Under the pieces are notes generated by a model. The model saw only the letters and a list, made by a program, of their open reading frames with translations. It was not told where the DNA came from and made no database searches. Position numbers and translations under genes: made by a program. 64,000 nt of DNA from Bacteroidales bacterium (GTDB taxonomy: Bacteria > Bacteroidota > Bacteroidia > Bacteroidales > UBA932), in NCBI GenBank assembly GCA_017459075.1, contig JAFUDQ010000017.1, positions 1 through 64,000 of the forward strand. Reading direction: 5' to 3'. Of this stretch, positions 13,281 to 52,663 are shown piece by piece; position 1 is the first letter of the stretch, and the number at the start of each line of letters is the position of its first letter.

Positions 13281-13283
13281 TCC

Positions 13284-13358
13284 TTGTCATTTCGAGCGAC
13301 CCTTCTTGTCATTTCGAGCGACCCTTCTTGTCATTTCGAGCGTAGTCGAGAAATCTCC
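13284..13358. repeat. REP-like repeat block A: three tandem units, 22-bp period
   Basis: TTGTCATTTCGAGCG occurs at 13284, 13306 and 13328. The third copy runs into the terminal arm with GTAGTCGAGAAATCTCC. It occupies the convergent gap between tolC and the radical SAM gene, and copies two and three encode the last 16-17 residues and stop of the latter. No inverted left arm is present here. Confidence 0.85.
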
Positions 13359-14319
13359 CCTGGTAGGTGTTCCGTTCTTTTAGGCGGGAGTCAAGGAGGC
13401 GGAGGACTTCGAAGTTGCGGATGAGACCCCAGCGGGATTCCCGGACGAAACGGGGCGGGACTTCGCCGGCGATGCGCTCTATGTAAAGGTACGGGCGCAG
13501 GCGCTCAAGGATGTCTATCGCAAGGTCCAGGTAGTCCGGCAAATCCAAGTCAAGGAACTCTTCCGGGTGGGCGTCATGAAGGGCTTCCATCGGCGTCCCT
13601 TTAACGTATTGCAGCTGATGGAATTTAACGCTTGTAAGAGGTAGCTCGTTGATTACAGCGCACTGGTCCAGAAGCATCTGACGGGTCTCGCCCGGAAGCC
13701 CAAGGATAAAGTGGGCTCCAACGTCCAGGCTGCGGGCCGCCGTAGCCTGCACGGCCGTAGCCGCGCAGGCGAAGTTATGCCCGCGGTTAATGAGCTCCAG
13801 CGTCTTGTCATAGCAAGATTCAATGCCGTATTCCACCACAACAATCGGCGCGGTAATCTCTCCGCCGGCCAGGGTGCGCCGCCACCCGGGCAAGGCGCGC
13901 CCGGCCGCCAAATCCGCCAGAAAATCCAGCTTCGCGTCATCTACGCAGTCCGGCCTGGTGCCAATCACTATTCCGGCAACCTCCGGGTGCTCAAGAGCCT
14001 TGAAATAACGCTCCTTAAGCACGGGAAGTGGGGCGTAAGTATTTGAAAATGACTGGAAATAAGCCAGATAGTGCCCCGCATTTCGGTAACGCACCTTATG
14101 AAAGGTAATACCCTCATCCAACTGCTGTGAAATAGGCATTGAGGGCGTACTGTACCCAGGATGAAAGGCCGCGTTGTCGCAATAAGTGCAGCCTCCGCGG
14201 CCCACGGTGCCGTCGCGGTTGGGGCAGGTGAAACCGGCATCCACGACCAGCTTCTGGAGCCGCTCGCCGTAGCGCCGCCTGTAATAATCGGCAAAAGAAT
14301 TATACCTCTTTTCTACCAC
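13309..14319 (-). CDS. TIGR01212 (YtqA/YhcC)-type radical SAM protein
   Basis: 336 residues. Radical SAM cluster C-P-N-R-D-G-T-x-G-x-G-G-C-x-Y-C near residues 32-47 follows a Y-x-x-Y-Y-R-R-R-Y-G opening, diagnostic for the YhcC/TIGR01212 family. Members bind a [4Fe-4S] cluster and SAM; the reaction is not firmly established. The HemN-like core continues with G-T-R-P-D-C, V-E-Y-G-I-E-S and F-I-L-G-L-P-G-E. Odd: the final residues (from G-R-F-L-D-Y-A-R-N-D to the stop) are encoded by the REP-like block at 13284-13358, so the natural C-terminus was replaced or extended. Overlaps the phosphatase gene by seven bases and is the last gene of the leftward GH20 operon. Confidence 0.92.
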   Translation of the reverse strand: MVEKRYNSFADYYRRRYGERLQKLVVDAGFTCPNRDGTVGRGGCTYCDNAAFHPGYSTPSMPISQQLDEGITFHKVRYRNAGHYLAYFQSFSNTYAPLPVLKERYFKALEHPEVAGIVIGTRPDCVDDAKLDFLADLAAGRALPGWRRTLAGGEITAPIVVVEYGIESCYDKTLELINRGHNFACAATAVQATAARSLDVGAHFILGLPGETRQMLLDQCAVINELPLTSVKFHQLQYVKGTPMEALHDAHPEEFLDLDLPDYLDLAIDILERLRPYLYIERIAGEVPPRFVRESRWGLIRNFEVLRLLDSRLKERNTYQGRFLDYARNDKKGRSK

Positions 14320-39533: not shown

Positions 39534-40754
39534 ATGCTTCGTATTATAAAAATATTGTTGAGCTTTTGCCTTGTCATGGGAGCCTTTTCCTGTACGCAGG
39601 ACAATAGCTTCAAGATTGCACCGCCAAAGAAGGTGGACGACCCCAGTAACAATACTGGAGGCGGCTCCGGCGGCGGTACTGGCGGAGGATCTGCAGATTC
39701 AGACGCTGCGCGCCTGGCCCGTCTGGGCCAGACGCCGGTAGTCTGCGTCTACCTTACGGAATACACTCCGGAGTCTGAATTCCCGGATGAGACTGAAATC
39801 CGTTACTATACCCATATCAACTACGGTCACGCCCGTTTTGTAGACAAGAAAGCCGGAACTGGCCTTGAGGTGGCAAATACTGCTTACCTTAAGAAACTTG
39901 CCTCTTACAAAACCAATTACCCCAAGCTCAAGATTCTGCTTATGGTAGGAGGCTGGGGCAAGAATGCCGACGGTTTTTCCATGATGGCCCGTGACCCTGA
40001 CAAACGCAAGGAATTCTGCCAGAACTGCGCAAAGATTTGCGACGAGTACGGGATTGACGGAGTAGACCTTGACTGGGAGTATCCCGGTTACGGGGCAAAG
40101 GACGGAGACTACGTCAACGGCTATTCTACAGAGGATGAGAAGAACTTCACCATCCTTGTGAAGGAACTCCGCGACGCCCTTGGCATTAACAGGCTTATTT
40201 CCTATGCGGCATCGGACAGTGGCAAGTATATGGATCATAAGGCCGCCCTGGAATATGTAGACTACATCAACGTAATGACCTATTCCATGGGAGACCCGCC
40301 ATACAGGCACAACTCTCCTCTTTACAAGTCTTTCCAGAATGCCCGCGGTGGCGCAGAGAGCATAGAAATATTCTATGGGAAGGGCGTCCCTTACGACAGG
40401 ATGAACTATGGAATCGCTTATTACGGCCATGGCGACGGCAATATCTACCCCTCATCTGTTCAGTATCACAGAATCAACCAGATCTTGACCCAGGGTACAT
40501 GGACTGACAAGGGTGTAACCCACGATGTTTCCGGATACAACAAGAGGTATTGGGATGCAGTGGGAATGGTTCCTTACCTTGGAGATGCCAGCGGAAGAAT
40601 GTACGCAAGCTATGAAGACCTTGAGTCGATAGAGATAAAAATCAAGTACATCAAGAACAAGGGCCTCCTGGGCGCTTTCGGCTGGGAATACCGTGAAGAT
40701 GAGAGTACGGGAACCCTCCGCCATGCTGTTTTTAACGGATTAAGAGGAAAATAA
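39534..40754 (+). CDS. GH18 endo-acting glycosidase, surface lipoprotein (second copy)
   Basis: 406 residues. Lipoprotein signal ending A-F-S-C, then a Gly/Ser-rich linker and the GH18 barrel. Catalytic motif D-G-V-D-L-D-W-E-Y-P with proton donor E182; also K-I-L-L-M-V-G-G-W-G and V-M-T-Y-S-M-G. It is clearly related to the first GH18 over the whole barrel (shared D-G-F-S-M-M-A-R-D and H-N-S-P-L-Y) but diverged, and has an extra Y-G-A-K-D-G-D-Y-V-N-G loop after the catalytic Glu, as in many chitinases. Last gene of the operon. The two GH18s bracketing the binding proteins suggest complementary cleavage sites (inference). Confidence 0.93.
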   Translation: MLRIIKILLSFCLVMGAFSCTQDNSFKIAPPKKVDDPSNNTGGGSGGGTGGGSADSDAARLARLGQTPVVCVYLTEYTPESEFPDETEIRYYTHINYGHARFVDKKAGTGLEVANTAYLKKLASYKTNYPKLKILLMVGGWGKNADGFSMMARDPDKRKEFCQNCAKICDEYGIDGVDLDWEYPGYGAKDGDYVNGYSTEDEKNFTILVKELRDALGINRLISYAASDSGKYMDHKAALEYVDYINVMTYSMGDPPYRHNSPLYKSFQNARGGAESIEIFYGKGVPYDRMNYGIAYYGHGDGNIYPSSVQYHRINQILTQGTWTDKGVTHDVSGYNKRYWDAVGMVPYLGDASGRMYASYEDLESIEIKIKYIKNKGLLGAFGWEYREDESTGTLRHAVFNGLRGK

Positions 40755-40764
40755 GCAAAATATT

Positions 40765-40794
40765 CTTGATTTATCGATTTAATAGCTATCTTTG
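40765..40794 (+). promoter_or_regulatory. Promoter of the citCG-acn-icd operon
   Basis: CTTG at 40765-40768 (-33 region) and TATCTTTG at 40787-40794 (-7) with an 18-base gap, a strong Bacteroidota promoter 50 bases before the citCG start. It separates the citrate operon from the PUL; no clear terminator is seen for the PUL. Confidence 0.65.
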
Positions 40795-40843
40795 CATCAT
40801 CAATCACAGGTAGAACCGGGAGTATTGGAAAGCCTGAAAGGTG

Positions 40844-42688
40844 ATGGACACATACGAAGAAAAGCAAATACAGGAACTGCCTCTGAGCGTTCCGCTATTC
40901 AGAATAAAAGTAGAAAACTTTCTCAAGGCTAATGAACTTAGACTTGAGAAAGTTGATTCGTATTTGGCTGTCCAGGATTCAGAAGGAGAAATCCTTGCCA
41001 GCGGCGGTATTAGCAAGGATGTCATAAAGTGTATAGCGGTATCTGAAAAGGCCCGTTCGGAAGGTCTTGCAACCCCGCTTATCTCCCGTCTTATATCCCT
41101 TGGGGCTGAGCGCGGCTATACCAACATCAAGGTGTTTACAAAGCCCGGCAACAGGAAGATTTTTGAAAGCCTGGGCTTCAAGGTGCTGGCAGAGGCTCCC
41201 AAGGCCATTTTCATGGAAAACGGCCGCGGCCTCTCACAGTATTGTGATTACCTTCAGAGATGTCTCGACTCCGCTCGACATGACAAGTCATTTCGACCGG
41301 AGGCCGAAGGCTGGAGCGGAGAAATCTCCTCCACCGTCATAATAATGAACGCCAACCCCTTCCACCTTGGTCACCGGAGCCTTGTGGAAAGGGCAGCGGC
41401 ACTTGGCAAGCCCGTGTGTGTGATTGTCGTCAAGGAAGACGCTTCGCGTTTTTCATATCAGGAGCGCCTGGCGATGGTGCGTGCCGGACTTGACGCAATG
41501 CCCAATGTGGTAGTTTGCGAAGGCAGCGACTATCAGATATCAGCAGCCACCTTCCCCACATATTTTTTGAAGGAACTGACCGATGCTTCCGAGACCCAGA
41601 TGCGTCTGGACCTTGACCTTTTCTGCCGCCACATCGCTCCTGCCCTTAATGCCGATGTTCGCGTTGTGGGCAGTGAACCAACCGACGCCCTTACAGCCCG
41701 TTATAACGCCCTTATGGCGGAAATCCTTCCTTCCCACGGCATTTCCGTACAGGAATTTCCCCGTTTTGGAGATGTCTCGGCTTCGCTCGACATGACAAGT
41801 CATTTCGACCGGACAATAGATTGTCATTTCGACCGGACACCGGGTTGTCATTTCGACCGGACAATGGGTTGTCATTTCGACCGGAGGCCGAAGGCCGAAG
41901 TGGAGAAATCTCCAATCTGCGGCTCCGACATCCGCACCCTTTTGGACAGCGAAGACGGCTTCCGCCAGGCGCTGGAAATGGTGCCGGAAACCACGCGCCC
42001 TTATCTTCTTGCAGACCGCGCAATATGGGCCCTGCAAAAAGAACTCTCCATCCCTTGCAAGCCAGGCCTTGTTGGCCCTGACGGCAGCGGAGCCCATTCA
42101 GACATGGATTACGCCCTGATGCTCAAAGGCATCGGCGCACTCCGCCCCTGGTTTGTTAAAATGACGGTGGCTGGTTCCGTGGAAGAATTGCGGAACCTTG
42201 GCATCGGCGCAGAAAAAGCAATGCTTGAAGCAACTGGAGGCATCAATACCCACAAAGGTGCAATCTTCGCCCTTGGACTGGCGCTTTTTGGAAAGGACAT
42301 GGCTAAGACTGCATCGGCTTTGGATAATGGATCTGCAAAGCATAGGGAAGGCGTTATTGGTGCCATGCAAATGGCAAAAGAAGGCTATACAGACCTGTTC
42401 CGCGACTGGCTCCCTTATTACAGGTCCGTCAAGAAAGAAGATAGCGGTGTGCATAAGACGCTTCTTCGCATAATGTCATCCCTGGACGATACCTGCGTAA
42501 TTCACAGGGCAGGCTATGAAAGGGCACTGGAGGTAAAGAAAGAAGCATCGGCATTACTGGAAAACTTCAGCCGGGAAGGGCTGGAACTGCTTTGCCGTAA
42601 ATATAGAGAAGAGCGCATATCCCCCGGCGGCGCCGCAGATATGCTTGCTTTGACACTTTTTATAGACAGTATAGAAGTAAATAATTAA
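40844..42688 (+). CDS. citCG: Fused [citrate lyase] ligase (CitC) - triphosphoribosyl-dephospho-CoA synthase (CitG)
   Basis: 614 residues from the ATG at 40844 (a GTG lies three bases upstream). Residues 1-137: GNAT-like domain of CitC. About 163-370: nucleotidyltransferase with N-P-F-H-L-G-H-R, V-V-K-E-D and G-S-E-P-T-D; CitC acetylates the citrate-lyase ACP prosthetic group using ATP and acetate. About 375-614: CitG, with C-K-P-G-L-V-G-P-D-G-S-G-A-H-S-D-M-D, which makes the prosthetic-group precursor. CitX-CitG fusions are known; a CitC-CitG join is less usual. Odd: two REP-like repeats are inserted in frame, at residues about 138-162 (between domains) and 309-357 (just before the ISxTxVR-like G-S-D-I-R-T-L-L). 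Both preserve the frame. Confidence 0.85.
   Translation: MDTYEEKQIQELPLSVPLFRIKVENFLKANELRLEKVDSYLAVQDSEGEILASGGISKDVIKCIAVSEKARSEGLATPLISRLISLGAERGYTNIKVFTKPGNRKIFESLGFKVLAEAPKAIFMENGRGLSQYCDYLQRCLDSARHDKSFRPEAEGWSGEISSTVIIMNANPFHLGHRSLVERAAALGKPVCVIVVKEDASRFSYQERLAMVRAGLDAMPNVVVCEGSDYQISAATFPTYFLKELTDASETQMRLDLDLFCRHIAPALNADVRVVGSEPTDALTARYNALMAEILPSHGISVQEFPRFGDVSASLDMTSHFDRTIDCHFDRTPGCHFDRTMGCHFDRRPKAEVEKSPICGSDIRTLLDSEDGFRQALEMVPETTRPYLLADRAIWALQKELSIPCKPGLVGPDGSGAHSDMDYALMLKGIGALRPWFVKMTVAGSVEELRNLGIGAEKAMLEATGGINTHKGAIFALGLALFGKDMAKTASALDNGSAKHREGVIGAMQMAKEGYTDLFRDWLPYYRSVKKEDSGVHKTLLRIMSSLDDTCVIHRAGYERALEVKKEASALLENFSREGLELLCRKYREERISPGGAADMLALTLFIDSIEVNN
41257..41329. repeat. REP-like repeat block B inside citCG (inverted pair)
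   Basis: Left arm GATGTCTCGACTCCGCTCGA, then TCATTTCGACCGGA at 41288 and a right arm ending GGAGAAATCTCC-like, so two inversely oriented arms meet around 41285. It is in frame with the gene and codes for about 24 residues at the junction of the GNAT-like and nucleotidyltransferase domains. Confidence 0.85.
41768..41913. repeat. REP-like repeat block C inside citCG with a 24-bp in-frame tandem
   Basis: Same left arm type as block B, then TCATTTCGACCGGA at 41800, 41824, 41848 and 41872 (exact 24-base period), then the GGCCGAAGGCC and GGAGAAATCTCC right arm. The tandem encodes an 8-residue repeat of the form C-H-F-D-R-T-x-x, four copies with the first lacking Cys (S-H-F-D-R). Adds about 49 residues inside the CitC domain. 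Confidence 0.9.
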
Positions 42689-42725
42689 AATATAAACAAT
42701 TAAAACATCACTAAAACAAACTATT

Positions 42726-44960
42726 ATGGTAGAATTGATTCCCCACGGTGTTTACCTTCTTGACGGCAAGACCATTGCCGACAAGGCCGCCCTCACTCCC
42801 GATGAGGCCCGTGAAAACACCATTACCTACGGTATCCTCCGCGCACACGATGTAGACGGAAGCAAAGGTAAGAAAATGCGCATCCGCTTCGATGCCATGG
42901 TTTCCCACGACATTACCTACGTAGGAATCATCCAGACAGCACGCGCAAGCGGACTGGAGAAATTCCCTCTCCCTTACGCCATGACCAACTGTCACAACTC
43001 ACTCTGCGCTGTAGGCGGAACTATCAACGAGGATGACCACGTCTTCGGCCTTTCCGCTGCAAAGAAGTACGGCGGTATCTATGTTCCTGCAAACCAGGCA
43101 GTTATTCATCAGTATGCACGCGAAGCCCTCACCCGCTGCGGCAACATGATTCTTGGTTCCGACAGCCACACCCGTTATGGCTCACTCGGTAACATGGGTG
43201 TAGGCGAAGGTGGTGGCGAGCTTGTAAAACAGCTCCTCCGCAACACCTGGGACATCAATGCCCCTGAGGTTGTTCTCGTATGGCTCGAAGGCAAACCCCG
43301 CAAGGGTATCGGCCCTCATGATGTAGCCATCTCCCTTGTAAAAGCTGTGTTCGAGAGCGGTTTCGTAAAGAACAAGGTTCTTGAGTTCGCAGGCCCCGGC
43401 GTAGCTAACCTGCCTATCGACTTCCGTAACGGTATCGATGTAATGACAACTGAGACCACCTGCCTCAGCTCTATCTGGATTACCGACGGTGAGGTAGAGA
43501 ACTACTTCAAGATGCATGAGCGCCCTGAGGCTTACAAAGAGCTCAAACCCGGTGCAGTTGCATACTATGACAGCATGATTCGCATCGACCTTGGCACACA
43601 GGAGAGCATGATCGCCCTTCCTTTCCACCCCTCAAACGCTTACACAATCCACGAGCTTCAGGCAGACCCTAAGGGAATTCTTTCCGCTATTGAAGAAGAC
43701 GCCCGCAAGCGCTTCGGCGACAAGATTCAGATTGACCTCCTGAGCAAGATTAAGGACGGCAAAGTAGTTGCAGACCAGGGCATTATCGCAGGTTGCTCCG
43801 GCGGTACTTATGACAACCTCAGCGAGGCTGCCACCATTCTCAAAGGCAAGTCTATCGGCAACGGATATTTCACAATGAGCGCATATCCCCAGTCAACTCC
43901 GGTTTACCTTGCAACAACACGCAATCATATCGCAGAGGAACTCCTTGAGGCCGGCGTAGTTATCAAGCCCGCTTTCTGCGGACCTTGCTTCGGCGCAGGC
44001 GACGTTCCTTCTAACAACGGTTTCTCCATCCGCCACACCACACGTAACTTCCCTAACCGTGAGGGTTCAAAGCCCGGCCAGGGCCAGATTTCACTCGTAT
44101 CCCTCATGGATGCCCGTTCAATTGCTGCAACAGCTGCCAACGGCGGCGTAATCACTGCTGCTACCGATATCGACTACAACGATACCCACGCACCTTACAG
44201 CTTCGACGGACGTATCTACAAGAGCCGTATCTTCAACGGTTATGGTAAGGCCGATGCTGACGTAGAGCTCCGCTACGGTCCCAATATCAAGGACTGGCCC
44301 AAGATGTATCCTATGGAGGAGAACATGCTTGTAGAGCTTGCAGCCGTTATTCACGACCCTGTTACCACTACCGATGAGCTCATCCCTTCAGGTGAGACCT
44401 CTTCTTACCGTTCCAACCCTCTCAAGCTCTCTGAGTTTGCCCTCAGCCGCCGCGTACCTGAGTATGTAGGCATTTCCAAGAGAATCCAGGCCCAGGATCT
44501 TGAGCGTCGTGCCGGTAATGTTCCTGCAAATGTGGCCGAGGCTCTTGCAAAGGTTGGCGCCAGCGCAGACAACACATCCTTTGGTTCATGCGTATTCGCT
44601 AACAAACCTGGTGACGGTTCTGCCCGTGAGCAGGCTGCTTCCTGCCAGAAGGTGCTGGGCGGCGATGCCAACATCTGCTACGAATATGCAACCAAACGCT
44701 ACCGCAGCAACTGTATCAACTGGGGTATCGTTCCTTTCACCATCGGCAAAGAGACAGAATTTAACTATGTTCCCGGAGACTTCGTATTTGTAAAGGGTAT
44801 CCGCGAAGCTATCCTTGCCGGCAAGGAAGAAATTGATGCTCAGGTTATTACAAAGGATGGCGTTAAGCCTATCCACCTGTTCTTCCAGAACCTTACTGCC
44901 GATGAGCGTGAAATCCTCGCCGACGGCTGCCTTATGAATTATTATAAAAATAGGAAGTAG
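42726..44960 (+). CDS. acn: Aconitate hydratase
   Basis: 744 residues. Interconverts citrate and isocitrate with a [4Fe-4S] cluster. Seen: G-S-D-S-H-T-R-Y-G (substrate/cluster site, first domain), A-G-C-S-G-G-T with the first cluster Cys, and A-F-C-G-P-C-F-G-A with the other two. A swivel domain with S-F-G-S-C-V-F and Y-R-S-N-C-I-N-W-G follows at the C-terminus. Length and motif spacing match the aconitase found beside icd in Bacteroides. Located 37 bases after citCG with no promoter in between, so probably one operon with it. Between its stop and icd lies a block of REP-like repeats. No citrate synthase gene is in the window. Confidence 0.94.
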   Translation: MVELIPHGVYLLDGKTIADKAALTPDEARENTITYGILRAHDVDGSKGKKMRIRFDAMVSHDITYVGIIQTARASGLEKFPLPYAMTNCHNSLCAVGGTINEDDHVFGLSAAKKYGGIYVPANQAVIHQYAREALTRCGNMILGSDSHTRYGSLGNMGVGEGGGELVKQLLRNTWDINAPEVVLVWLEGKPRKGIGPHDVAISLVKAVFESGFVKNKVLEFAGPGVANLPIDFRNGIDVMTTETTCLSSIWITDGEVENYFKMHERPEAYKELKPGAVAYYDSMIRIDLGTQESMIALPFHPSNAYTIHELQADPKGILSAIEEDARKRFGDKIQIDLLSKIKDGKVVADQGIIAGCSGGTYDNLSEAATILKGKSIGNGYFTMSAYPQSTPVYLATTRNHIAEELLEAGVVIKPAFCGPCFGAGDVPSNNGFSIRHTTRNFPNREGSKPGQGQISLVSLMDARSIAATAANGGVITAATDIDYNDTHAPYSFDGRIYKSRIFNGYGKADADVELRYGPNIKDWPKMYPMEENMLVELAAVIHDPVTTTDELIPSGETSSYRSNPLKLSEFALSRRVPEYVGISKRIQAQDLERRAGNVPANVAEALAKVGASADNTSFGSCVFANKPGDGSAREQAASCQKVLGGDANICYEYATKRYRSNCINWGIVPFTIGKETEFNYVPGDFVFVKGIREAILAGKEEIDAQVITKDGVKPIHLFFQNLTADEREILADGCLMNYYKNRK

Positions 44961-45077
44961 ATTTTTCGCTTCGCTCAAAATGACAACAATTGTCATGTTG
45001 AGCCAACAATTGTCATGTCGAAACAACATTGTCATGTTGAGCCAACAATTGTCATGTCGAGCGAAGTCGAGACATCT
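44961..45077. repeat. REP-like repeat block D between acn and icd
   Basis: Starts directly after the acn stop with an inverted left arm (TTTTTCGCTTCGCTCAAAAT), then ATTGTCATGT at 44989, 45009, 45028 and 45048 (periods 20, 19, 20), then right arm GCGAAGTCGAGACATCT. It fills most of the 147-base intergenic space. It can form hairpins in the acn-icd mRNA and could attenuate or stabilise it. Confidence 0.88.
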
Positions 45078-45107
45078 AAAAAGACAAACAACTAAATTAC
45101 TATAGAA

Positions 45108-46319
45108 ATGAAAAAAATCCAGATGACCACCCCTCTCGTAGAGATGGACGGTGATGAAATGACAAGAATCCTTTGGAAGATGATTAAGGACGAGCTCGTG
45201 CTCCCTTTCGTTGACCTTAAGAGCGAATATTATGACCTTGGTCTTGAATATCGTGACAAGACGGGTGACCAGGTTACCATCGACTCTGCAAACGCTACCA
45301 AGAAGTATGGTGTAGCAGTAAAATGCGCTACCATTACTCCTAACGTACAGCGTATGAGCGAGTACAACCTCCATGAGATGTGGAAGAGCCCTAACGGAAC
45401 CATCCGTGCAATGCTTGACGGTACCGTTTTCCGTTGCCCTATCACCATCCCTTCAATCCACCCCGCAGTTAAATTCTGGAAGAAGCCTATCACCATCGCC
45501 CGTCATGCTTACGGCGACGTTTACCGTGATGTTGAAATCCAGACCACTGAGCCCGGAGTTGCAAAGCTCGTATTCGAAGGTGAGAGCGGAAAGAAAGAGG
45601 AAATGGTTATCCATAAGTTCGCAGGCCCCGGCGTTATCGAGGGTATGCACAACACCGACGCTTCTATCCGCAGCTTCGCACATTCTTGCTTCAAGTATGC
45701 CCTTGACGTTAAGCAGACTATCTGGTTCGCTACCAAGGATACTATCTCCAAGAAGTATGACGGCCGCTTCAAGGCTATCTTCGAGGAAGTTTTCCAGGAG
45801 TACAAAGATGCTTTCGAGAAAGCTGGCATCGAGTATTTCTATACTCTTATCGACGACGCTGTTGCACGTGTTATGCGTTCTGAGGGTGGCTTTATCTGGG
45901 CTTGCAAGAACTATGACGGCGACGTTATGTCCGACATGGTTTCAACAGCCTTCGGTTCACTTGCCATGATGACATCCGTTCTTGTAAGCCCTGACGGCAA
46001 ATACGAGTACGAGGCTGCTCACGGCACAGTAACCCGCCACTATTACAAGTATCTTAAGGGTGAAGAGACCTCTACCAACCCTATGGCTACTATCTTCGCA
46101 TGGAGCGGCGCATTCCGCAAACGTGGCGAACTTGACAACCTCCCGGAGCTTGTCAACTACGCAAACCAGCTTGAGGCTGCCTGCTTCGACACCCTAAACG
46201 AGGGTCTCGTAACCAAGGACCTTGTAAACCTCATCGAGGGCATGACTCCTACCGCCCTCAACTCACTTGACTTCCTCAAGGCCATCCGCACCCGTCTTGA
46301 GAAACGTCTTGGCTGCTAA
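45108..46319 (+). CDS. icd: NADP-dependent isocitrate dehydrogenase (eukaryotic-like class II type)
   Basis: 403 residues. Oxidatively decarboxylates isocitrate to 2-oxoglutarate; the reaction is reversible with reductant and CO2. Seen: [13 protein letters not shown] near the N-terminus, the substrate segment [24 protein letters not shown] and A-A-H-G-T-V-T-R-H (NADP site). It belongs to the homodimeric subfamily II, not the E. coli type. Last gene before a strong terminator at 46336-46378. Separated from acn by the REP-like block. Confidence 0.96.
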
Positions 46320-46335
46320 GTATTTGGTACACACG

Positions 46336-46378
46336 AAAAAAGAAGAAGTTAGCTTCGGTTAACCTCTTCTTTTTTTTC
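46336..46378 (+). terminator. Rho-independent terminator of the citCG-acn-icd operon
   Basis: A stem of about 12 pairs (AGAAGAAGTTAGC against GTTAACCTCTTCT with a mismatch or G-U), TTCG tetraloop, then an uninterrupted T run. Located 17 bases after the icd stop. Confidence 0.9.
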
Positions 46379-46404
46379 TGTACCTCGGACGGGACTCAAA
46401 GCCG

Positions 46405-47118
46405 TTAAAATCTGGCAAGGGTGAGGCCGACGTGGAAGCCAAGGCCGCCGTATTCGAAACAAGGGCCCAAGGTAAATGAAAGGCCTTTATACAGCTTGAA
46501 CCTTACTCCCGGGCACCAGCTGAAGTAAAAATCGGTCTGACCCTTCTTCAAAAGGTCGCTGTTTTGGGTGTCTGATTTGTAGCAATATGCAAGTCCGAAG
46601 CGAAGGTCGTTGTACACACTTACCGTCGCTTTGCCAAAATAACGCCTGTATCCAAGGAAAAATATGCGGTCGTGCTCCGTGGCCGGCTGGCTGTCCTGAT
46701 ATTGAGACAAGGTCCCAATGCCGATGGTGGCCACTCTCGTGTCATTAAAGCTTATGCCGGCTGTAAGGCTTGCAGACTTAACAAAGCCGACTATCCCGGA
46801 TATAGAAAACTCCGGTTTGATATTTTGTGCCGATGCCTGCTTAACCCCGCAAATAAGAACAAGAAAGATAGCAGAAATAGTGGATACACAGCGTAGTATT
46901 GCATCCCAATCCATGTCTGTATGCGATTTCCTAAAGTCTTTAGATAGCTTATAAACACTTTCTCCTATACATTGTAGATTATAAATCACTGCATGACAGA
47001 GAATTTTATCTGATATGAAGGAATCACAGCTATAAGTTCCTTTTAGAAACTGATTAATGTTTTCGATAGACTCTTTCATTAGCTCTATACGGGCCGGATC
47101 GTTTACCTTATCTCTCAT
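46405..47118 (-). CDS. Fusion of a truncated HepT (HEPN) toxin with an outer-membrane beta-barrel protein
   Basis: 237 residues. Residues 1 to about 73 match the N-terminal half of HepT/DUF86 HEPN toxins (M-R-D-K-V-N-D, R-I-E-L-M-K-E-S-I-E-N-I, N-L-Q-C-I-G-E-S-V-Y-K-L-S, ending M-D-W-D-A-I-L). HepT normally continues with the catalytic R-x4-6-H and a conserved Tyr; here the frame instead passes straight into a hydrophobic V-S-T-I-S-A-I-F-L-V-L-I-C-G ending A-S-A-Q, that is a signal peptide. A roughly 135-residue beta-barrel protein ending in a C-terminal Phe follows. The toxin active site is lost. The barrel could be made from the ATG at 46914 (169 residues), but that n-region is acidic, so a fusion is the better reading. 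Overlaps MNT by 11 bases. Confidence 0.75.
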   Translation of the reverse strand: MRDKVNDPARIELMKESIENINQFLKGTYSCDSFISDKILCHAVIYNLQCIGESVYKLSKDFRKSHTDMDWDAILRCVSTISAIFLVLICGVKQASAQNIKPEFSISGIVGFVKSASLTAGISFNDTRVATIGIGTLSQYQDSQPATEHDRIFFLGYRRYFGKATVSVYNDLRFGLAYCYKSDTQNSDLLKKGQTDFYFSWCPGVRFKLYKGLSFTLGPCFEYGGLGFHVGLTLARF

Positions 47119-47626
47119 AAATCAAATATTTATCCCGTTCCGCAGAAGCAGCGGCAAATGGCTTTAAATAGCCGTTTGAAACCAGATCTACCTCTCTGCC
47201 GATGATTTTTTCAAGGTCTAATTTAAAGCGAACTATATCAAGAAGTGAAACCCTACTGTCTTTGTCGTAATCTACTAAAAGGTCCAGATCGCTATTGGAA
47301 GTCTCTTCACCACGCGCAAAAGACCCAAACACCCAAGCCCTTAATACTGGGATGGTTGCCAGATAATTTTGTGTCGCAGAGAACATTCTTATCCTATTTT
47401 CGTTTATTGATGATAGTGAGACCGATATTTCTTCTGACACACCCCGTCTTGTAGCATAGCGATGCAGACGGTTCATATTGACAGGAAACACTTCCAGTGC
47501 TTTTTGAAGTTCAAAAGAAAAAGACTCTTTCATCTCTCTATGTCTGCAATAATCATCTACGAGTTTCTTTTCCAATGAATGAATCTTTATGTCATCATAT
47601 TCAATCAAGGGAGAATCAGACACCAT
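47108..47626 (-). CDS. MNT-type nucleotidyltransferase (HepT antitoxin family) with truncated DUF6577-like N-terminus
   Basis: 172 residues from the ATG at 47626; an ATG at 47533 is also possible, and the frame is open back to a stop at 47708-47710. The C-terminal 90 residues carry G-S-F-A-R-G-x5-S-D-L-D-L-L-V-D, the G-S...D-x-D site of minimal nucleotidyltransferases, which AMPylate and silence HepT. The upstream part (I-H-S-L-E-K-K-L-V-D-D-Y, then V-N-M-N-R-L-H-R-Y-A-T-R-R-G) resembles the C-terminal part of DUF6577/AbiEi-like antitoxins. Homologous-looking residues continue upstream of any ATG, so the 5' part seems deleted against the next gene, 10 bases away. A broken locus. Confidence 0.7.
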   Translation of the reverse strand: MVSDSPLIEYDDIKIHSLEKKLVDDYCRHREMKESFSFELQKALEVFPVNMNRLHRYATRRGVSEEISVSLSSINENRIRMFSATQNYLATIPVLRAWVFGSFARGEETSNSDLDLLVDYDKDSRVSLLDIVRFKLDLEKIIGREVDLVSNGYLKPFAAASAERDKYLIYER

Positions 47627-47716
47627 TGGGCCGATGATAATATAGCCTTCCAATGTTGCAGGGAAACGGTCAGCATCCTTTTTTAAAACTATTTTTGAAA
47701 GGCTTGGTTATACCGG

Positions 47717-48502
47717 TTAAATCTCGTCCGGCTCAATGAAAATTGTGCAGGATTTTCCGGAGGTGCCCCCGTTATACATATAGGCAAGGCCGGTATTGGC
47801 CTCTTTCAGCTGCTTTATCAGGGTTTTCATCAGCGGGTCGTTGGCATTGTTAAGCTCTCCGCGAAGTGCCTCTTTTACAGTATCATAGCTTGCCTGAATG
47901 AGGTCAATTGTATAAAGATTCTCATCGCACTGGTAGCTGTAGTACCAATAACCATCCCTGATGAAAACATCCGTCAGTACAAGACCGTTGTCGATAGTCG
48001 TAGGCAGGGTCATTTTGGTGCTGGACAGGGTAGCCTCAAGCAGTTTCATGGGGTCTGCAACATCAGGTTTTGCTTTTAGCTCTTCAGCCGTAAAGTGATT
48101 GACCAGAGATTTTCCCTCTATGTTGCGGAAGACAATTTCAAGATCTGCATCAGCTTCCAGAATAGCATCCAAGACAAGTTTCATGTTCCTGTCCGGATTG
48201 TTGACAAGGCCCTGAAGAATGTTCTTGCGATACTCATCCCCAAACTGGCTCACTTTGTCAATGTCGATGATATCGTTATTCAATATCAAATAGTTGAAGG
48301 CGACGGTTTCATTGTCATAGGTGACGCTTTCCATGGACAGGCCTTCGGTGATTTTGACAGGGCAAACCTTATTGGCTGCTGAAACCAGTTTTTTGATTTT
48401 GCCGCTTCCGCTGTTGCAGCCGTTGAAAGCCATTGATACAACCAGGAATGCTGCGATAAACCCAAAGATAAAACCGATTAATGATTTGATACTTTTTTTC
48501 AT
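47717..48502 (-). CDS. Membrane-anchored protein of unknown function
   Basis: 261 residues. Opens M-K-K-S-I-K-S-L-I-G-F-I-F-G-F-I-A-A-F-L-V-V-S, a single membrane segment, followed by a G-C-N motif that could be a lipobox (F-N-G-C) or simply follow the anchor. The remainder is a soluble alpha/beta sequence with acidic helices, facing the periplasm if the anchor is N-in. No domain is recognised. It is divergent from citD with 118 bases between the starts, and tail-to-head with the damaged MNT gene. Possibly a Bacteroidota-specific lipoprotein. Its 3' end abuts the DUF6577 remnant, implying a deletion nearby. Confidence 0.7.
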   Translation of the reverse strand: MKKSIKSLIGFIFGFIAAFLVVSMAFNGCNSGSGKIKKLVSAANKVCPVKITEGLSMESVTYDNETVAFNYLILNNDIIDIDKVSQFGDEYRKNILQGLVNNPDRNMKLVLDAILEADADLEIVFRNIEGKSLVNHFTAEELKAKPDVADPMKLLEATLSSTKMTLPTTIDNGLVLTDVFIRDGYWYYSYQCDENLYTIDLIQASYDTVKEALRGELNNANDPLMKTLIKQLKEANTGLAYMYNGGTSGKSCTIFIEPDEI

Positions 48503-48575
48503 GGAGTTAAGATTTAAAAACGAACAAATATAATAATTAATGCCCTAAAATTTTTCTTTTGTGAGGAAAAAGGGA

Positions 48576-48583
48576 TATTTTTG
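48576..48583 (+). promoter_or_regulatory. -7 promoter element of the citDEFX operon
   Basis: TATTTTTG, exact consensus, 38 bases before citD, with a TTTG at 48558-48561 on the upstream side (spacing shorter than ideal). Confidence 0.55.
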
Positions 48584-48620
48584 TATGATTTATAGAATTT
48601 ATCGATAAACACACATAATT

Positions 48621-48902
48621 ATGGAAATTAAAAACGCCGTAGCAGGCACACTCGAATCGGGTGACATCATGGTCCAAATCGGCCCCGCAAAGGAAGGAGA
48701 AGGACTTGTTGTAGACCTTGAAAGTTCGGTGGCAGCGCAGTTTGGCAAACAGATTCGCGCCCTTATCACCGATACCCTTAAAGATCTTGGAATTGACAAT
48801 GCTGCAGTAAAGGCCACCGATAAAGGCGCCCTTGACTGCACAATCCGCGCACGCGTGACCGCAGCTGCCGTCCGCGCCACCGGAAAAGACGTTTGGAAGT
48901 AG
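48621..48902 (+). CDS. citD: Citrate lyase acyl carrier protein (gamma subunit)
   Basis: 93 residues. Carries the phosphoribosyl-dephospho-CoA prosthetic group on a Ser, here in T-L-E-S-G-D near residue 13, and shuttles acetyl/citryl thioesters between the alpha and beta subunits. The Ser-Gly-Asp context, the basic core D-C-T-I-R-A-R-V and the overall length fit CitD. First gene of citDEFX. The group is made and attached by CitG and CitX and acetylated by CitC, all encoded in the window. Confidence 0.95.
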   Translation: MEIKNAVAGTLESGDIMVQIGPAKEGEGLVVDLESSVAAQFGKQIRALITDTLKDLGIDNAAVKATDKGALDCTIRARVTAAAVRATGKDVWK

Positions 48903-48911
48903 GAGGTAAAC

Positions 48912-49802
48912 ATGGACAGACTAAGAAGAACTATGATGTTCGTTCCGGGAAACAACCCCGGAATGATGGCAGACGCCCACATCTACGGTCCTGATTCAAT
49001 CATGCTGGACCTTGAAGATTCCGTAACGATGGCAGAGAAAGACGCTGCCCGTCTTCTCGTTTACAACGCCCTTAAATCCATTGACTACGGCGATACAGAG
49101 ATGGTTGTCCGTATCAACCCCCTTAACACTCCTTACGGAAAGAAAGACGTGGAGGCTGTTGTAAAGGCCGGCGTAGACGTCATCCGTATGCCTAAGACAG
49201 AAACCGCAGACGAGGTTCGTGAGCTTGAGGCAGAGATTCTTAAGGTAGAGACCGAGCTCGGCTGCGTAGGCCGCACCCAGATTATGGCTGCCATAGAGAG
49301 CGCCCTTGGCGTAGTAAATGCCTATGAAATCGCGACAGCATCAAAGAGAATGATGGGTATCGCCCTTGGAGCAGAAGACTACAGCGCAAACCTCAAGACC
49401 CAGCGTACTCCGGAAGGAAACGAGCTGCTTCTTGCACGTGAGACCATAGTTGTCGCAGCCCGCGCCGCCGGCATCTGCTGCTTCGACACCGTTTACTCCA
49501 ACCTGGACGACATGGAGACCTTCCGCAAAGAGGTAGAGCTTATCAAGACCCTCGGCTTTGACGGCAAGTCTATCATCAACCCTCGCCAGATAGAGGTTGT
49601 AAATCAGGTATTTGCACCTACTGCAAAGGCCATTGAGAAGGCACTCAAGATTATCGCCGCCATCAAGGAGGCACAGGCAAAAGGCTCCGGCGTCATCGCC
49701 GTAAACGGCAAGATGGTAGACCGCCCGGTTGTTATCCGCGCAGAGAGAACCATCGCCCTTGCAATTGCATCAGGAATCTTAAATAAGGAGGACGTACAAT
49801 GA
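48912..49802 (+). CDS. citE: Citrate lyase beta subunit (citryl-ACP oxaloacetate-lyase)
   Basis: 296 residues. Splits citryl-ACP into acetyl-ACP and oxaloacetate. Seen: R-R-T-M-M-F-V-P-G-N-N-P start, the D-L-E-D-S-V metal/substrate motif, V-R-I-N-P-L, M-P-K-T-E-T, M-A-A-I-E-S-A-L-G-V and A-L-G-A-E-D-Y, typical of the HpcH/HpaI-CitE TIM-barrel family. Nine bases after citD; its stop overlaps the citF start (ATGA). Confidence 0.96.
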   Translation: MDRLRRTMMFVPGNNPGMMADAHIYGPDSIMLDLEDSVTMAEKDAARLLVYNALKSIDYGDTEMVVRINPLNTPYGKKDVEAVVKAGVDVIRMPKTETADEVRELEAEILKVETELGCVGRTQIMAAIESALGVVNAYEIATASKRMMGIALGAEDYSANLKTQRTPEGNELLLARETIVVAARAAGICCFDTVYSNLDDMETFRKEVELIKTLGFDGKSIINPRQIEVVNQVFAPTAKAIEKALKIIAAIKEAQAKGSGVIAVNGKMVDRPVVIRAERTIALAIASGILNKEDVQ

Positions 49803-51220
49803 GAAATTCAAAACTCACAACCCTTGAAGAGGCAATCCGTAAATCCGGTCTTAAGGATGGCATGACCATCTCATTCCACCATCATTTCCGTGGCGGAGAC
49901 AAGGTTGTAAACATGGTTGTTGCAAAGCTGGCAGAGATGGGTTTCAAGAACCTTCATCTTGCTGCATCCAGCCTCTCGGACGTTCACGCCCCGCTTATTG
50001 AGCATATCAAGAACGGCGTCATCACCAAGATTTCCACTTCCGGCCTTCGTGGAGAGCTCGCTAACGAGATTTCCCACGGCCTTATGAAAGAGCCTGTCAT
50101 CTTCCGCTCCCATGGCGGCCGCGGCAGTGCTATCGCTACCGGCGAGCTCCATATTGACGTTGCCTTCCTTGGCGCTTCTTCCGCCGATGAACTTGGTAAC
50201 GCCTGCGGTTATTCCCGCAGCGAGAATGCGAAGAGCATCTGCGGCTCCCTTGGCTACGCACTTCCCGACGCCCGTTATGCAGACCACGTTGTTGTCATTA
50301 CCGATGACCTTGTAGCATACCCCAACGTCCCCAAGTCTATCTCCGCTGCCGATGTTGAATCAGTGGTTGTTGTTGATTCTGTTGGCGACAGCTCCAAGAT
50401 TTCCGCAGGTGCAATCCGCGATTCCAAGAATCCGCGCGACATCCTCCTTGCAAAATCCGCTGCAAAAGTTGTCATCAACTCCGGCTATTTTGAGGATGGT
50501 TTCTCTATCCAGACCGGTACAGGCGGTGCATCACTGGCTGTTGTCAAGTACATACGTGAGAGCATGCTTGAGAAGGGCATCAAGGCTTCATTTGCCCTCG
50601 GCGGCATCACCGCCCACATGGTAAAACTCCATGAAGAAGGTCTCATCGGCCGTCTTATTGACGTTCAGTCTTTTGACAAGGTTGCCGCTGAGTCCATCAA
50701 GAACGATCCTTTCCATCAGGAGGTTTCCGCAGTAGAATACGCCAGCGGCATGCACCAGGGTTCTGCCGTTCATGCCCTTGACATTGTAATTCTCTCTGCC
50801 CTTGAGGTCGATGTCAACTTCAACGTTAATGTTTTGGTTGGTTCCGATGGTATCATCCGTGGCGCTATCGGTGGCCATCAGGACACCGCTGCTGATTCCG
50901 CCCTTTCAATCATCGTTTGCCCTCTGCTCCGCGGACGCATCCCTTGCGTAGTGCCTAAGGTTACTACCCTTATCACTCCCGGAAAGAGCGTGGATGTAGT
51001 TGTTACTGAGTACGGCATTGCCGTTAACCCTAACCGTCCCGAGGTGGCTGAGCGTCTTCGCGCCGCCGGCCTTAACGTTGTGGATATCAATGACCTGGCT
51101 GCCAAGGCTACCTCTATCATAGGTACTCCTGACGCCCTTCCTTTCGGTGACAAGGTGGTAGGAATCGTTTACAACCGTGACGGCAAGGTTCTGGACGAGA
51201 TTCATAACATCGTAGAATAA
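49799..51220 (+). CDS. citF: Citrate lyase alpha subunit (citrate:acetyl-ACP transferase)
   Basis: 473 residues. Exchanges acetyl for citryl on the ACP. Seen: the M-T-I-S-F-H-H-H-F-R-G-G-D motif near residue 22-34, the S-H-G-G-R-G segment, and the C-terminal I-R-G-A-I-G-G-H-Q-D region of the CoA-transferase-like fold. Four-base overlap with citE and one-base overlap with citX, so stoichiometric coupling is expected. Full length, no repeat insertion here. Confidence 0.96.
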   Translation: MRNSKLTTLEEAIRKSGLKDGMTISFHHHFRGGDKVVNMVVAKLAEMGFKNLHLAASSLSDVHAPLIEHIKNGVITKISTSGLRGELANEISHGLMKEPVIFRSHGGRGSAIATGELHIDVAFLGASSADELGNACGYSRSENAKSICGSLGYALPDARYADHVVVITDDLVAYPNVPKSISAADVESVVVVDSVGDSSKISAGAIRDSKNPRDILLAKSAAKVVINSGYFEDGFSIQTGTGGASLAVVKYIRESMLEKGIKASFALGGITAHMVKLHEEGLIGRLIDVQSFDKVAAESIKNDPFHQEVSAVEYASGMHQGSAVHALDIVILSALEVDVNFNVNVLVGSDGIIRGAIGGHQDTAADSALSIIVCPLLRGRIPCVVPKVTTLITPGKSVDVVVTEYGIAVNPNRPEVAERLRAAGLNVVDINDLAAKATSIIGTPDALPFGDKVVGIVYNRDGKVLDEIHNIVE

Positions 51221-51759
51221 TGGAGATTACCCTCACAGAACTGCTGGCCAGCAGGGACGCACGGGTAGAGCATCAGAAGAAGCTCGCGAGAGAATTCCCG
51301 CGGGCTTCTTTAATATGTTTTACCGTAATTCTTCCTGGTTCCGTCAAAAGGGACGACCGGTCCCTCACCGTCGCCAAAGCCGGTGTCCATGCCATCCGGC
51401 AAACTTTTCAAACTTGTCATTCTGAACGAAGTGAAGAATCTCTTATCCTATATCAGGAGGAAAGGGACCTTGTGACGGGGTTTGAGGCGTACTTCGTGGT
51501 GGATTTACCGGCTGTGGATGTCAAGAGAATTTGCTGCGAAATCGAAGACAATCACCCCCTTGGCCGTCTAATGGACATCGATGTCATTGCAGGACCGGAA
51601 ATCCGGCCGCTGAGCCGGGCGGAAAGCGGACTGCCTGAGCGCCGCTGCCTCTTATGCGAAAAACCCGCACGCGAATGCATGCGGGCTCACAGACATACTC
51701 AGGCAGAACTACACGCCGCCATCGACACTTTAATAAAATATGCCGGCAAGCCTGAATAA
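51220..51759 (+). CDS. citX: Apo-citrate lyase phosphoribosyl-dephospho-CoA transferase with an in-frame repeat insertion
   Basis: 179 residues. Transfers the prosthetic group to CitD. Seen: L-L-A-S-R-D-A-R-V-x-H-Q near the start, V-I-L-P-G-S-V-K, R-R-C-L-L-C-E-K-P-A-R-E-C-M-R and H-T-Q-A-E-L, all CitX marks. Odd: residues about 65-76 (C-H-S-E-R-S-E-E-S and neighbours) are encoded by a REP-like repeat and are unrelated to the family. The reading frame is kept, so the protein may still work, with a surface insertion. The start overlaps the citF stop. Convergent with the ROK gene. Confidence 0.9.
   Translation: MEITLTELLASRDARVEHQKKLAREFPRASLICFTVILPGSVKRDDRSLTVAKAGVHAIRQTFQTCHSERSEESLILYQEERDLVTGFEAYFVVDLPAVDVKRICCEIEDNHPLGRLMDIDVIAGPEIRPLSRAESGLPERRCLLCEKPARECMRAHRHTQAELHAAIDTLIKYAGKPE
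51414..51442. repeat. REP-like repeat block E inside citX (single unit)
   Basis: One right-arm unit, TTGTCATTCTGAACGAAG followed by TGAAGAATCTC. In frame in citX it reads C-H-S-E-R-S-E-E-S, a peptide seen whenever this repeat family is translated in this phase. No left arm, no tandem. Confidence 0.88.
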
Positions 51760-51775
51760 AGGCGCCGGCAAACAA

Positions 51776-52663
51776 TTAAAGAAACAAGGATGCTGCTCCA
51801 AGCATTGCGGCTTTGTCCAAAAGGACAGAGCCTTTTACGTCTACAGTCAGGCCAACCTGGCCGTAAGCCCTCTGGAGGGCCTGCATAAAGAGCGGCAGGC
51901 TCCTGGAAATATTGCCACCAAGAACAAGAGTACGGCTGTTAAACTTATTCAGCCATGGCGTTGTAAACTCTGCCAGGCGGTAACCAAACTCATTGAAAAG
52001 CTGCTTTGCGGCATCATCGAACTCAAAACGCATTGCAACATCCTTTGCACCCTGAACCTGCTTACCGGTAAGCTCACTGTAACGCCCTACAACCCAGCGG
52101 GTGGAGAAAGCTTCATCCACTATACCCTCATGGAAGGGGAGATTCCAGACTTCCCCTCCCGGGGGAACAGAGTCTCCGCTGCGGACAATGGTGTGGTTGG
52201 CGATGAATCCTGAACCTACACCTGTACCAAGGGTAAGGACAATCACGCGGTCTATATTCTTGGCTGCGCCAAAACTGCTCTCTCCCAGGGCGAAAGCACC
52301 TGCATCGTTAACGAACTTAAACTCCAAATCCTTAAATTCCAGCAGTCTGGCGGCAAGGGTCTGGCCGATGTTTATTCCATAAATAGCCTGGAATTTATGC
52401 TCCATCCAGGAAATGCCCTTGTCATAGTCAAAAGGCCCCGGGAAAGCCATTCCAATCTGTTTCACCGGCAGGCCGGACTCGTTAATGAGCAGGCGGAGGT
52501 TCTCTGTCCATGCAGAAAAAATAACCTCTGCCGGAGAGGTATGGTCTACATCGGTCGTGACGGGATGTCCTACGATAACGCCTTCTTCCAGGTCTACAAC
52601 GGCAGAAGTAATGTGGCTGCCACCAATGTCAACGCCAATTGCGTATTTCTTTTCAGGATTCAT
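51776..52663 (-). CDS. ROK-family sugar kinase/regulator-like protein (second copy)
   Basis: 295 residues. N-terminal I-G-V-D-I-G-G-S-H-I-T phosphate loop, catalytic Asp in F-V-N-D-A-G-A-F-A-L-G-E, L-G-T-G-V-G-S-G adenosine loop, and a late L-V-L-G-G-N-I-S. The ROK zinc Cys cluster is missing (G-G-E-V-W-N-L-P-F instead), so it is not a classic glucokinase; no DNA-binding domain either, so a kinase is favoured over a repressor. Alone on the minus strand, convergent with citX and divergent from feoAB. Its own promoter reads TATATTTG leftward at 52711-52718. Substrate unknown. Confidence 0.88.
   Translation of the reverse strand: MNPEKKYAIGVDIGGSHITSAVVDLEEGVIVGHPVTTDVDHTSPAEVIFSAWTENLRLLINESGLPVKQIGMAFPGPFDYDKGISWMEHKFQAIYGINIGQTLAARLLEFKDLEFKFVNDAGAFALGESSFGAAKNIDRVIVLTLGTGVGSGFIANHTIVRSGDSVPPGGEVWNLPFHEGIVDEAFSTRWVVGRYSELTGKQVQGAKDVAMRFEFDDAAKQLFNEFGYRLAEFTTPWLNKFNSRTLVLGGNISRSLPLFMQALQRAYGQVGLTVDVKGSVLLDKAAMLGAASLFL

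Follow-up and report, generated by a model that had tools for sequence, protein, structure and literature searches.

How does an enzyme gene come to hold, within its reading frame, DNA of the kind that also lies between genes, and at what cost to the enzyme? The question is raised by a citC-citG fusion gene (citCG; 40841..42688, forward strand) of a Bacteroidales bacterium, which lies in an analysed stretch of 64,000 nucleotides, called the window below. The 615-residue product is made up of a GNAT domain, a citrate lyase ligase and a triphosphoribosyl-dephospho-CoA synthase, as judged by Pfam, NCBIfam and the open frame, and scores 241 bits against TIGR00124, under the cut-off of 262. The genes citD, citE, citF and citX (48621..51759, forward strand; NCBIfam) encode the citrate lyase on which CitC and CitG would act. 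A search for a solved structure of CitC or CitG gave only weak matches to phosphopantetheine adenylyltransferase. The evidence presented here makes it very probable that selfish REP-like DNA is tolerated in permissive loops, and that its slippage is filtered to whole codons.

Two repeat blocks within citCG

Block 1 (41257..41329) is a head-to-head dimer of REP-like units that keeps the frame. By the unit definition, its left unit comprises 29 nt on the reverse strand (41257..41285) and its right unit 44 nt on the forward strand (41286..41329), with A for T as the first base. The block specifies residues ~139-163, at the junction between the GNAT match (residues 34-117) and the citrate lyase ligase match (residues 165-310). 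Block 2 (41769..41913, residues ~310-358) is a dimer of the same orientation, also in frame, with three extra head copies between both units: a left unit of 29 nt on the reverse strand (41769..41797) is followed on the forward strand by three heads, each consisting of GTCATTTCGACCGGA and a 9-nt spacer (41799..41870), and by a terminal full unit (41871..41913). GTCATTTCGACCGGA starts at 41799, 41823, 41847 and 41871, giving four heads with an exact 24-nt period and an 8-residue peptide repeat; TRF assigns to this array a period of 24, 3.6 copies and a score of 146. Directly past the block lies R365, which is invariant among 45 aligned sequences. The blocks share a left part of 45 nt (41257-41301 and 41769-41813, 96% identical) and a right part of 43 nt (41287-41329 and 41871-41913, 93% identical). 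An earlier note, made from this DNA alone, had described two blocks with the arms of intergenic repeats inside citCG, the second with four copies at a 24-base period, both keeping the frame, one at a domain junction and the other just before a conserved motif; all of these features are borne out.

The predicted fold of block 2 beats 200 of 200 shuffles (z -4.0), and that of block 1 is weaker (z -1.5, 15 of 200 shuffles being equally good). A repeat-like unit of another type, read as the peptide CHSERSEES, is found by sequence in frame within citX (51415..51442, forward strand) and is absent from the other citX segments compared. This unit folds no better than its own shuffles, nor does a repeat array at 13281-13365. 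No Rfam family reaches the gathering score in 40700-52000.

The repeat element and its abundance

The arms of the citCG blocks match repeats outside genes. One example is an array of the same family at 13283..13360 (forward strand) with a period of 22 nt and a full unit at its end, across which no ORF of at least 100 aa runs. Another, at 44983..45075 (forward strand) between the hydratase and isocitrate dehydrogenase genes, has TRF periods of 20 and 39 nt, also ends in a full unit, and is crossed by an antisense ORF of 288 aa. The full unit can be written as TGTC-AT...AT-CTC, with a length of 29 to 44 nt, and 61 units are detected by this pattern in 275 kb of the window genome. The tag is TGTC in all 61, although the pattern let the first base be C or T. 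The tail is CTC in all of them, as the pattern demanded; in the window it is CTC apart from one CTA (45070). The complementary AT at stem positions 1 and 2, fixed by the pattern in the 61, is also present in the window units. By eye, the stem consists of ATTTC/GAAAT and CCG/CGG, making 8 pairs with an asymmetric interruption, and the inner part is 9-24 nt where listed. The folding of single short units is weak (-0.8 to -2.9 kcal/mol). Neighbouring units less than 150 nt apart are arranged head-to-head in 8 cases, head-to-tail in 6 and tail-to-tail in none.

The core GTCATKTCGANC occurs 191 times in the 2.32-Mb genome, compared with 6 occurrences of the reversed pattern, and GTCATTTCGACCGG occurs 22 times, compared with none of its control. 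The abundance of the core motif is thus far above chance. A RAYT-type transposase was considered as the mover and set aside: the search covered the Y1 type, and neither of the two Y1_Tnp genes of the genome has an adjacent unit, as read by eye from the sequence.

In-frame inserts in other genes

The surroundings of the first 100 listed core places, forming 53 clusters on contigs C1 to part of C26, were fetched, and further places were chosen through exact or protein matches. Taken in contig order, the 53 clusters include at least 14 that lie in frame within 13 Pfam-identified genes, a lower bound because the ORFs at the other clusters were not all run against Pfam. These genes, named from Pfam and sequence, are citCG (two clusters), miaA, hutU, hutI, an arginase-family gene, trmO, potA, rfbB, a sugar epimerase gene, aroD-aroA, pyrK, purD and an iron alcohol dehydrogenase gene. 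The further places bring the number of Pfam-identified genes to 20 by adding folC (three clusters), truB, aroK, dnaX, parC, a GH97 gene and a gene with two HU-like domains. Cluster C6:55118, in an ORF with an HSDR_N match, is excluded from the genic count, as it sits ahead of the matched part.

For HutU, RfbB and PurD, homologues of solved structure lack the inserts. Residues 248-292 of the urocanase HutU fall between residues 240 and 242 of 6uek, the RfbB insert falls between ~126 and 144 of 8du1, and that of PurD is within the C domain. Such places are presumably surface loops. Between near-identical flanks, the RfbB loop is formed by the TGTC-tagged repeat in the window genome and by other repeat-like stretches or a short loop in congeners (27 of 30 loci read). 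In hutI (L231 741-2072), a second stretch near the N-terminus (MPDQVGHDGKGVIPGCDRESAT) resembles yet another repeat type. The truB insert is located at L219 2244-3194; truB of several other bacteria is reported to carry REPs in the portion of the literature drawn on here (PMC3733652), and truB is perhaps a widely permissive site.

The earlier note had called an in-frame insertion of this kind unusual. This judgement does not hold: at least 19 other genes of the same genome carry such inserts, other species have other repeats in the same situation, and intragenic REPs are already described in the sections considered of published accounts (PMC3733652, PMC3767692, PMC2229807).

citCG across the genus

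Of the 400 searched genomes of the genus, among them that of the window, 126 gave matches, some near the threshold and probably due to nothing but the repeat, as is the case for the window genome. Part of the 126 was fetched, and gapped, split and contig-end copies were left out of the alignment, which contains 104 fusions of more than 500 aa, namely that of the window, 102 from congeners and one from another genus. The loci in named records are mostly from Bacteroidales bacterium, many of them from ruminants. At the places of block 1 and block 2, the majority of the 104 lack any insert of at least 5 residues. This speaks against the counter-evidence named in the earlier note, which would have been repeat-free relatives with homologous residues at the same places.

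When one variable site is set apart, 124 inserts of at least 8 residues remain, which are carried by 60 of the 104 sequences and lie at a few recurrent sites. The excluded site, residues 483-500, was a candidate insert site and was rejected in favour of a natural length difference, as none of its 87 inserts had matches at two loci elsewhere once citCG was masked. At residues 495-500 of the window CitG, 94 of the 104 sequences have 5 to 49 extra residues, and the sister species has the longer form. Among the 124, 61 inserts, spread over 34 sequences, have matching DNA outside citCG in two or more of the fetched loci, as do 3 of 211 control segments (2 of the 124), with the reservation that one genomic place can appear in two loci for inserts and control alike; the other 63 have no match outside citCG at the threshold in the fetched sequence. 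Five hand-written peptide patterns sort 76 of the inserts and leave 48 that fit none. The motif GTCAT/ATGAC occurs at 7.9 per kb in the citCG inserts; the remainder of the gene has 2.0 per kb, and inserts after shuffling have 1.4.

On a FastTree tree, the six main sites require at least 6, 8, 11, 4, 4 and 7 changes, at least 40 in total, counts that do not separate gain from loss. Different repeats recur at the same citCG places in congeners: at the block 1 site, G129 has CHSERSEES and other relatives have other stretches. The core is present within citCG in 6 of 9 genomes with at least 19 copies and in 2 of 23 others (p 0.002; 32 genomes with both data, with the cut chosen after the numbers were seen and citCG copies included in the counts), and insertion seems to follow repeat load.

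The nearest relative, the sister species G354 (81% over 519 core columns), has the left half only at both block sites, and at a third site, in CitG, it has a version with two heads spaced by 24 nt, which is absent from the window. The evidence as a whole supports the earlier claim that REP-like repeats were inserted in frame and that one was expanded by a codon-length unit. Between G495 and G203 (dS 0.17), a 63-nt difference at the block 1 site is accompanied by other in-frame stretches elsewhere. Within the window genome, contig C42 (12,125 nt; C42:1-12125) equals part of the segment C48:52000-71900 except for 42 nt, corresponding to two 21-nt units within the aroK array, and a single mismatch at the array edge. 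The difference reflects either polymorphism in the population or a variant of the assembly, and redundancy of this type may explain part of the 8% contamination estimate. The suggestion that copy number may vary between strains thus gains indirect support from the sister species and from the aroK arrays. No empty site was observed within the same species.

Insert density differs strongly between genes and is high in citCG. Inserts are borne by 5 of 125 copies of the neighbouring hydratase, 0 of 39 of isocitrate dehydrogenase and 0 of 3 of chitinase, as counted by another method with partial copies included. A reading by pure tolerance must therefore invoke looser loops in citCG.

Reading frames and array periods

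The 55 cores in the 20 genes use all five stop-free frames (13, 14, 7, 11 and 10 cores), and the gene-frame combinations over these frames number 10, 5, 4, 5 and 5 (chi-square p 0.42). The five frames are used without significant difference, and therefore no single peptide is favoured. The sixth frame, which holds TGA, has 0 cores; this is a matter of definition, because the counted ORFs are open.

Every one of the 12 arrays within identified genes has a period divisible by three, as opposed to 3 of the 14 other arrays (Fisher p 5e-5). On the preferred reading, only whole-codon changes survive in a gene, and genic periods are accordingly multiples of three. The argument is partly circular, because an open frame was required for an array to count as genic, and a frame-breaking array would not have scored as such. 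The 26 arrays were also sorted by hand; the periods therefore show survival, not mechanism. The final test excludes the array at 44983-45075 on account of its TRF period of 20 or 39; counted as a non-multiple, it gives p 3.7e-5. Spacings above 60 nt (84 and 147 nt, both genic and both multiples of three) were excluded as arrays, and the second aroK contig was counted only once with the first.

The same observations bear on the possibility that the inserted peptides have been taken into use, the arrays tuning loop length or enzyme activity and being kept by selection. The codon length of all genic arrays, the differences between sister species and between the two near-identical contigs, and the recurrence of inserts at the same places would all fit such a role. 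It is nevertheless improbable, since five different frames of one core are in use, citCG by itself accounting for four, congeners hold different repeats at the same site, and 44 of the 104 citCG sequences do without any insert of at least 8 aa outside the variable site.

Maintenance of the enzyme

citCG is under purifying selection: in each of 17 hand-chosen pairs, dN/dS over the core codons lies within 0.10-0.22. This argues against a decaying citCG, in which the repeats would mark relaxed selection on the way to a pseudogene. Decay would account for an insert density much above that of the neighbouring hydratase, and the citCG frame is split in three congeners. In G476 (L117), the break lies, as judged by eye, at a repeat-like stretch read in a shifted frame, and insertion therefore does not always keep the frame; the frame of G336 (L122) is split too. 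On the other hand, damage by a repeat was considered for G575 (L123 3444-3487) and rejected, as the break is a run of N. The 104 frames of more than 500 aa are free of stops, the window still has citD, citE, citF and citX, and inserts are also carried by urocanase, RfbB, PurD, FolC and TruB, which are conserved enzymes. Decay is accordingly rated slightly less probable than a use of the peptides, and both are unlikely. The run of N in G575 lies in CitG, near a place where some other species have inserts, and repeats may cause assembly gaps in citCG.

An artefact, with dispersed repeats misplaced in genes or copies miscounted, could be suspected in a draft bin of 53 contigs with 8% contamination and a second contig that differs by two units, yet it is very improbable: related half elements occupy both sites in an independent genome as well, one gene after another retains its frame, and other species show the same pattern. 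The exact copy number of block 2 could still be wrong.

Proposed origin of the inserts and its implications

Tolerance of selfish REP-like DNA in permissive loops thus remains the preferred explanation. The citCG blocks would be copies of the dispersed TGTC-tagged REP-like palindromic element in the form of head-to-head dimers. The element would have landed in citCG and been retained because the loops are permissive and the frame free of stops. The tandem copies would most likely have arisen by replication slippage, or by unequal exchange, between neighbouring heads. As judged from the sequence, the inserts are probably translated, and the enzymes that bear them probably retain activity. The inserted peptides would have no dedicated function, selection opposing damage without favouring the peptide.

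A broader idea, tentative and rather doubtful at present, is that dispersed palindromic repeats are a main source of new protein loops in the genus, several families alternating at the same permissive loops and then acting as codon-locked variable tandem repeats. If this is true, the loops of housekeeping enzymes change in length more rapidly than these enzymes gain point mutations.

The in-frame entry of REP-like DNA into genes, described for Rickettsia, Wolbachia and some free-living bacteria, is extended here to a Bacteroidales genus with hundreds of genomes. With hundreds of comparable genomes, the sites that tolerate insertion, the turnover rate, a possible codon-length filtering of slippage and any co-option of peptides become testable by comparison alone. 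In-frame repeat inserts can also mislead annotation, structure prediction and assembly.

Comparison with known systems

In a literature search in which Bacteroidales taxa were named in part of the queries, no report of in-frame REP-like inserts in Bacteroidales was found by title. No repeat-related title is present among the matches listed for GTCATTTCGA, and HSERSEE has no match. The RAYT-mobilised REPs of the GTAG type are not matched by the present element, the units of which carry TGTC and do not flank the two Y1_Tnp genes.

The longer Rickettsia palindromic elements share with the citCG blocks the in-frame insertion into protein genes, according to the portions drawn on here of the relevant reports (PMC2229807, PMC10969869). 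A guanylate kinase carrying such an element (RPE) is described there as translated and active with altered substrate affinity (PMC2229807). These elements have a length of 105-146 bp and are said to encode a conserved peptide (PMC2229807, PMC10969869), whereas the units here are short and are read in five frames.

A closer likeness is seen with RPE-4, RPE-6 and RPE-7 and the Wolbachia palindromic elements, which, in the sections considered of their descriptions, are short palindromes in frame in conserved genes, with different groups at nearby positions of orthologues and an enrichment of ATGAC (PMC3767692, PMC3733652). RPE-4, RPE-6 and RPE-7 share the ATGAC motif and may sit at insertion hotspots (PMC3767692, as far as drawn on here). 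The likeness is judged from these descriptions and the ATGAC motif count. The hosts of those elements are obligate intracellular alphaproteobacteria, whereas that of the window belongs to Bacteroidales. In the same sections, insert positions of R. japonica are conserved in the spotted fever group, whereas the citCG inserts change often, and codon-length tandem arrays are not found there for RPE-4, RPE-6, RPE-7 or the Wolbachia elements (PMC3767692, PMC3733652).

The CGTC-tagged REPs, reported within genes of known proteins (Di Nocera et al., 2013, PMC3733652), resemble the present element in many respects. In the part of that report considered here, they are described as having a stem of 8-9 bp, a loop of 4-5 nt and a short unpaired tail, mostly CCA, with head-to-head dimers predominant, and Bacteroidetes is among the five phyla with repeats of this type (PMC3733652). 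Features in common are the end tag, of which TGTC is a listed variant, the AT/AT start of the stem, the head-to-head dimers, the absence of a dedicated transposase, here as far as adjacent Y1_Tnp genes are concerned, the units and dimers inside genes of known proteins, and the hit in truB. The window element may differ in its tail, read as CTC (CTA at 45070) in place of the consensus CCA, and in its stem, which by eye is interrupted and has a variable inner part. Arrays of truncated heads with codon-length periods occur here in genes, whereas clusters are called rare in that part of the report, and different repeats replace each other here at one place across the genus. Collectively, as far as these published accounts are represented by the sections drawn on, intragenic REPs of this type are already known (PMC3733652, PMC3767692, PMC2229807), and the codon-length arrays of heads, together with the turnover at the same loops, are the less familiar part.
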